DNA from: Candidatus Peregrinibacteria bacterium GW2011_GWF2_38_29
GTDB taxonomy: Bacteria; Patescibacteriota; Gracilibacteria; UBA1369; UBA12463
Direction of reading: 5' to 3'
Assembly (NCBI GenBank): GCA_000992695.1
Contig: LBUS01000002.1
Span: 62,001-126,000, forward strand
DNA: 64,000 nt
The translations under genes and the position numbers were made by a program. Shown in pieces: positions 5,665-6,503 of this stretch. Position 1 is the stretch's first letter, and each line of letters starts with the position of its first letter. Under the pieces are notes generated by a model that was given only the letters and a program-made list of their open reading frames with translations, was not told the origin of the DNA and made no database searches.

Positions 5665-5973
5665 TTAAGGCGTTAAATCCGGGAAAATTATTTCAAAAAC
5701 AATGATAAGCATTATAAATGTACCTAGTGTTGCTCCGGCCGGGATTAGAATTTTTTTGTTGAGTTGGCCCGGTTCGGTGAATCCTTCAACTAATTGTGAA
5801 ATTCCGTATACTAAAGCGGAAATTATGAATGGGATTTGTATTGTTTGATGCGTTATAGTTGCGTGTATTTTATAAAAATCAGCGAGAATCATGAGTCCGC
5901 TCATAATATAAATTCCACCTAAAATTGCGAAAAACCAAATTCCGACCTTTTGGATGTTTTTTATTGTTTCCAT
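5665..5973 (-). CDS. Small integral membrane protein
   Basis: Start set at ATG 5971-5973 (METIKNIQKVGIWFF...); ORF-track extension to 6147 runs into a structured intergenic element. Confidence 0.55.
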   Translation of the reverse strand: METIKNIQKVGIWFFAILGGIYIMSGLMILADFYKIHATITHQTIQIPFIISALVYGISQLVEGFTEPGQLNKKILIPAGATLGTFIMLIIVFEIIFPDLTP

Positions 5974-6005
5974 CGCGGATATTATACATATTTCCGTTAA
6001 ACAAA

Positions 6006-6163
6006 GGAAGATTAGAATTTTTGTTCCATCAAAAGACGCTGTTGATTTCCCCTGCGAGGAAATCACAGCTCGCGCTCGGTTGTCACTCTTTTTGCTTTGC
6101 AAAAAGCCGTGCCCGCGACAACCTCCGCGACGCTTTTTCTGTACCAAAAATCTCTAATCTTCC
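6006..6163. repeat. 158-bp imperfect inverted-repeat element enclosing two nested hairpins
   Basis: GGAAGATTAGAaTTTTTG (6006-6023) versus CAAAAAtcTCTAATCTTCC (6145-6163); inner hairpins at 6044-6064 and 6071-6129. Confidence 0.8.
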
Positions 6164-6209: not shown

Positions 6210-6503
6210 ATGTTATCGGAAGAAGAGGTCAAACATATTGCAAAGCTTGCGAGAATTCGCCTTACTGATGCGGAAATTAAGAAGTATTCCACTCAGCTGA
6301 CGGATATTTTGGAATATGTGAAAATTCTTGAAGAAGTTGATACAAAGAACTTTGAGCCGACTTCGCAGGTGACGGGGTTAAAAGATGTGACGCGTGAGGA
6401 TGTTGTTGTGAGCAATTCTGCAACCGGTGAGGATTTACTTAAATGCAGTACGCTTCCGGTTCAAAACAATCAAATAAAAGTTAAACCTGTTATAAAACAA
6501 TAA
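6210..6503 (+). CDS. gatC: Asp/Glu-tRNA amidotransferase subunit C
   Basis: LSEEEVKHIAKLARIRLTDAEIKKYSTQLTDILEYVKILEEVDT. Confidence 0.93.
   Translation: MLSEEEVKHIAKLARIRLTDAEIKKYSTQLTDILEYVKILEEVDTKNFEPTSQVTGLKDVTREDVVVSNSATGEDLLKCSTLPVQNNQIKVKPVIKQ

Follow-up and report, generated by a model that had tools for sequence, protein, structure and literature searches.

What kind of object is the 158-bp nested inverted repeat that occupies positions 6006 to 6163 of the window (the whole 64,000-nucleotide stretch of DNA analysed here)? A preliminary description had noticed the repeat, its GC-rich interior and its position between two genes, and had suggested either a MITE-like unit or a structured non-coding RNA. 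The position was as described, with gatC (6210 to 6503, plus strand; Pfam GatC) downstream and a divergently read small ORF without a Pfam match (5665 to 5974, minus strand) on the other side, both of which serve only as context. The GC content of the interior (6041 to 6140) is 0.54 versus 0.37 for the window. The repeat itself is real. Its outer stem is formed by a left arm, GGAAGATTAGAATTTTTG (6006 to 6023), whose sequence is private to this copy, and a right arm, CAAAAATCTCTAATCTTCC (6145 to 6163), which pairs with it. Within the outer stem (stems and hairpins are given without strand) are a closing stem P1 (CAAAAG, 6030 to 6035, with CTTTTT, 6133 to 6138), a hairpin H1 (6044 to 6064; GATTTCC-CCTGCGA-GGAAATC, stem 6044-6050/6058-6064) and a compound hairpin H2 (6073 to 6129) with a CGC/GCG base. 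H2 consists of a GGTTGTC/GACAACC stem (6078-6084/6117-6123), an apical stem CTTTTTGC/GCAAAAAG (6088-6095/6099-6106) and a conserved C-rich internal loop CCGTGCCC (6107 to 6114, plus strand; family form ACCRTGCCC). Read from H1 to H2, the element lies on the plus strand, and the strand predicted to fold best is its complement. RNA folding gave -59 kcal/mol for the plus strand (z -6.9) and -75.4 for the minus strand (z -8.0), and none of 200 dinucleotide shuffles folded as well on either strand.

The element contains no noteworthy ORF. The ORF list does run the small divergent ORF and some others across it; because the element is multicopy and intergenic at the sites examined, these frames can be attributed to chance. 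A transcription terminator was considered and rejected, since no terminator-like site was found between 5900 and 6260 and the copy sits between divergent genes. There is also no obvious sigma-70 promoter leading into the element.

A DNA search of the genome of origin (G000) returned partial repeats, the flanks of which diverge yet fold alike. We relied on covariance models, the first of which (R1) was a hand-made structure on seven copies and the second (R2) a wider model. The conserved core of the window copy (104 positions, 6030 to 6136, plus strand) matches R1 with 101.3 bits and an E value of 7.9e-20, a score to be read with the window copy being part of the training set. R1 identified 16 copies in G000, 8 and 3 in two congeners and 11 in G054, which belongs to another family, and none in five sister-genus genomes. 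With R2, copies were found in 14 of the 89 genomes of the order, including 15 in G054, and members in at least 25 of the 381 phylum genomes sampled, distributed over many families; because no more than ten candidates per genome were scored, the counts from the phylum sample are minimum values. When named genomes were scanned with a degenerate pattern and the covariance model was then applied, at least 42 matches were obtained, and the groups among the matches listed include Patescibacteria groups, Omnitrophota, Aminicenantes, Deltaproteobacteria and WOR-3, the phylum names being those of MAG titles, in which binning errors are possible. Pattern matches in cultured genera (Streptomyces, Amycolatopsis and others) were not confirmed by the model and provide its negative control. 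The patchy occurrence and the absence from the sister genus could in part reflect model sensitivity, and two weak members (L045 and L125) may be false. No Rfam family matches the element, and a DNA search of phage and plasmid collections gave no match. In IMG/VR, 28 pattern matches were found and none was confirmed by the model, which leaves a viral carrier without support. The preliminary description would have been refuted by a single copy, absent from relatives and without structural conservation; the data contradict this condition on every count that could be tested.

The copies vary in extent. A longer one (186 nt; L208, 4448-4633) lies among clustered ribosomal protein genes in a Patescibacteria MAG. 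Short matches in G054 (for example, L062, 1658-1722) are truncated copies of ~65 bases from which H2 is mostly missing, one of them adjoining a full copy; they may offer a picture of how copies decay. Adjoining two copies of the main element is a second long nested palindrome (L029, ~1660-1790; L031, ~1300-1430). It has CCCC/GGGG at its centre and a different pair of arms at each of the two loci, and may represent another family of similar design.

All of the family shares one anatomy, a three-way junction composed of P1, H1 and the long H2, wrapped in a long outer stem. H1 has a 7-bp stem and a loop close to CCAGCGA, and H2 carries a conserved asymmetric internal loop, CTC versus ACCRTGCCC. 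In the core alignment (73 copies), double changes were observed at all 30 modelled pairs, and covariation was 0.741, compared with 0.217 for shuffled and at most 0.122 for slid versions. Fitting the alignment to the model inflates these percentages, but with so large an effect and with the slid versions as controls, this is unlikely to matter. The outer stem, typically 15-25 bp, is private in sequence to each copy and complementary to itself: in 109 copies, arms aligned to their own partner with a mean score of 31.5, as against 14.1 for shuffled partners. The arms differ between copies even where the cores are 93-100% identical (L029/L031/L032 and L133/L153), and the two G294 copies L133 and L153, with an identical core, differ at 5-6 bp in both arms, the changes being complementary.

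The orientation of the copies follows the composition of the chromosome strand. GC skew was calculated from third codon positions around the copies, separately for genes on each strand, and a site was counted as strongly skewed when both gene skews had the same sign and a mean of at least 0.15, a threshold picked after seeing the data. At such sites, all 35 copies, from six genomes (9 in G000, 15 in G054, 4 in G113, 5 in G264 and 1 each in G241 and G226), have the H1-to-H2 reading on the G-rich strand. Copies from the same genome are only partly independent; the 20 outside G054 would give 2e-6. Three further copies, with genes on one strand only, have the same orientation. Weakly skewed sites are mixed, and two are contrary (G000 C1:14106 and G226 C3). 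Compositional drift does not account for the rule, given that the core on the H1-to-H2 strand is C-rich (2586 C, 1801 G). The inverted pairs that share a contig in G440, G144 and G185 stand outside the skew comparison; close inverted pairs (G440 C3 33214-34126 and C12 59176-59499; L188 3256-4547; L199 2213-4062) are exceptions to one-way orientation within a contig. Contig C1 of G054, sampled at 20 places (L078-L097) over 998 kb, has uniformly negative skew for the genes of both strands, with no sign switch, a pattern similar to that of Ch65, a closed Microgenomates-group genome that has been proposed to replicate unidirectionally (PMC7143001).

Do the copies come and go? Seven G000 copies have orthologues in G001, and six other G000 sites are cleanly empty there, with 5-24 bp replacing ~160-340 bp. 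Two of these sites (L035 and L036) are empty in G002 as well, for which gain in G000 is the simpler reading. Neither arm is present at the six empty sites, and insertion into a pre-existing hairpin was rejected on this ground. At a seventh pair (L029/L065), the sister genome G001 keeps a plain hairpin, which represents either an empty hairpin target or a deletion of the core. The check for target-site duplications raised in the preliminary description came out negative: none was visible by eye at the six empty/occupied pairs, where the flanks have diverged and short duplications could be lost. No donor and recipient copies with matching arms were found, so movement is deduced from the empty sites, some of which could be deletions. 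Orthologous copies evolve unevenly: the arms of L037/L059 have changed in a compensatory manner, and L032/L053 differ along their whole length; our guess is that fast arm change arises through template switching within the palindrome. We would give an even chance to the view that the window element is one copy of a dispersed, protein-free DNA family, the functional form of which is a single strand folded into a three-way junction borne on a long stem, and which is likely non-autonomous and mobile.

The window copy itself counts against this view. All 158 of its positions are identical in two species, compared with 104 changed third positions out of 366 (28%) in gatA, which looks like selection at the site and not like a parasite; the identity spans the entire intergenic region, and promoters may be part of the constraint. 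One alternative hypothesis is a fork-oriented folded chromosome site that serves the host in replication, segregation or repair, through priming, loading or polarity, is selected for, and has moved only secondarily. The strict orientation to GC skew is also what such a site would show. Against it are the absence of copies from the five sister-genus genomes and from most genomes of the order, the six sites empty between two close species and the uneven spacing of the copies in G054. We regard this hypothesis as unlikely, if the most credible of the alternatives to a mobile folded-DNA family.

As a second alternative, the complement strand could be transcribed into a structured RNA, either the product of a non-coding gene or a cis-regulatory RNA. 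The strongly conserved structure, which bore out that part of the preliminary description, would fit an RNA. A structured RNA should tolerate G-U wobble on its transcribed strand. On the H1-to-H2 strand, the core stems contained 1664 Watson-Crick, 12 G-T and 29 A-C cells, with no wobble preference and thus not RNA-like, whereas the acceptor and T stems of tRNAs at the same loci, examined as a control, contained 354, 14 and 1. The A-C to G-T ratio was 51:26 in the core (both alignments) and 128:68 in the arms, so that, read on the complement, wobble is mildly favoured, ~1.9:1 (binomial ~3e-7, with related copies not being independent). Drift from C to T on the H1-to-H2 strand, which is the G-rich one, would produce the opposite bias. 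With DNA parameters, the complement was also the better-folding strand in 114 of 115 copies. These results favour the complement DNA strand as the one that folds. An RNA transcribed from that strand is possible, as it is compatible with the same wobble and folding data. However, wobble of either kind is rare in absolute terms next to the 14:1 of tRNA, Rfam and the promoter inspection offered nothing, and orientation is mixed relative to the neighbouring genes and follows GC skew instead, so that the RNA genes at skewed sites would all run counter to the usual leading strand. Taken together, the near absence of wobble, the orientation fixed to skew and the mixed orientation to genes argue for a structure at the level of DNA; the non-coding RNA reading is disfavoured, and we consider it quite unlikely.

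The leading strand is G-rich in most bacteria. Assuming that this holds here, the folding strand of the DNA element would be the leading-strand template. In this respect the family would resemble the attC sites of chromosomal integrons, the folding bottom strands of which lie on the leading-strand template in 25 of 30 cases (PMC5371416), and it would differ from IS608, which follows a lagging-template rule (PMC6006769). Like attC sites, the copies are DNA palindromes of similar size, variable in sequence and conserved in structure, with a single, imperfectly paired folding strand. Unlike them, they form a three-way junction and not one hairpin, occur as single dispersed copies between host genes and not in cassette arrays, and lack the RYYYAAC/GTTRRRY box pair, which was present at the ends of 1 of 115 copies (0.7 expected from shuffles). 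The parallel is thus one of working and not of membership; the element may work like an attC site or a REP without being either. A proposed single-stranded structured DNA motif from comparative structure analysis, OTH-22-1, has RYYYAAC at its 5′ end and has been described as attC-like (PMC8632094), in contrast to the present family without the box pair.

The MITE-like reading was partly upheld. A classical MITE would be a deleted DNA transposon with terminal inverted repeats, the arms of which have since decayed. Small size, the lack of a protein, multiple dispersed intergenic copies and presence or absence at orthologous sites are all as in MITEs. In contrast, no terminal inverted repeat is shared, even among copies with nearly identical cores; decay would break the pairing of the arms, and the pairing is kept; the six empty sites show no visible target-site duplication; and cut-and-paste transposition would not be expected to give a fixed orientation. 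We, therefore, find a decayed MITE improbable.

One could also envision REP or REPIN elements mobilised by a resident Y1 transposase. REPs are short (~20-60 bp) hairpins of conserved sequence with a GTAG/GTGG tag. Like them, the copies are dispersed, non-autonomous intergenic palindromes, and RAYT, a Y1 transposase, is encoded in G000, G001 and G002. The copies differ in being ~160 bp long with private stems. No GTAG/GTGG tag was conspicuous when they were aligned. No R1 copy lies beside any of four RAYTs. Two of these genes (L076, 1190-1990, in G000 C1, and L075, 1355-2140, in G001 C5) have flanking repeats of their own, GGGGACGGAGGT/ACCTCCGTCCCC, a motif that is also seen at some empty sites of G001 and G002 (L063, L065 and L064). 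Although the REP-related IS608 and ISDra2 have single-stranded DNA at replication forks as their substrate (PMC6006769, PMC3116915), mobilisation by RAYT is very improbable, given that G054 has 15 copies and no Y1 transposase, that the RAYTs of G000 and G001 are flanked by other repeats and that the folding strand would lie on the leading and not the lagging template.

The Y1 transposase was, therefore, rejected as the mobiliser, as was reverse transcriptase, which is absent in the element-bearing G054, G059, G078 and G144. Xer-type recombinases are found everywhere, and tyrosine recombinases occur equally in genomes without the element. An autonomous version was sought between the inverted pairs of L188 and L199 and beside the L208 copies and rejected, since no transposase was recognised there among the ORFs by eye. 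Among the families tested, no mobilising enzyme was found.

How might a mobile, folded DNA family of this kind work? The complement of the H1-to-H2 strand would be the strand that folds, and an enzyme acting in trans could spread the copies by reading the shape and the C-rich loops and not the letters of the stems. Copies that persist would be those with the folding strand off the exposed lagging-strand template, as has been reported for most attC sites of chromosomal integrons (PMC5371416). Recognition of shape alone, together with fast compensatory or template-switch change in the arms, may account for the private outer stems. Because the family differs from attC, REP/RAYT and MITE elements in the defining feature of each, we set it apart from all three. 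A description of the family was not found in the open-access literature, and subscription journals may hold one; it is apparently undescribed so far. We lean slightly towards a new class of single-strand-folding DNA present across several uncultured phyla, recognised by shape, free in stem sequence and locked to the direction of replication, which is either mobile by way of a shape-reading enzyme or a fork-oriented site.

If this is true, there would be a class of chromosomal DNA, comparable in kind to attC or REP, in which shape is conserved and sequence is free, in lineages whose mobile DNA and replication are little known. The strict orientation could mark the direction of the replication fork in fragmented genomes. 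Mobility is directly testable at the empty/occupied pairs. The element thereby makes one question concrete, namely, which enzyme in these reduced genomes reads a folded DNA strand.
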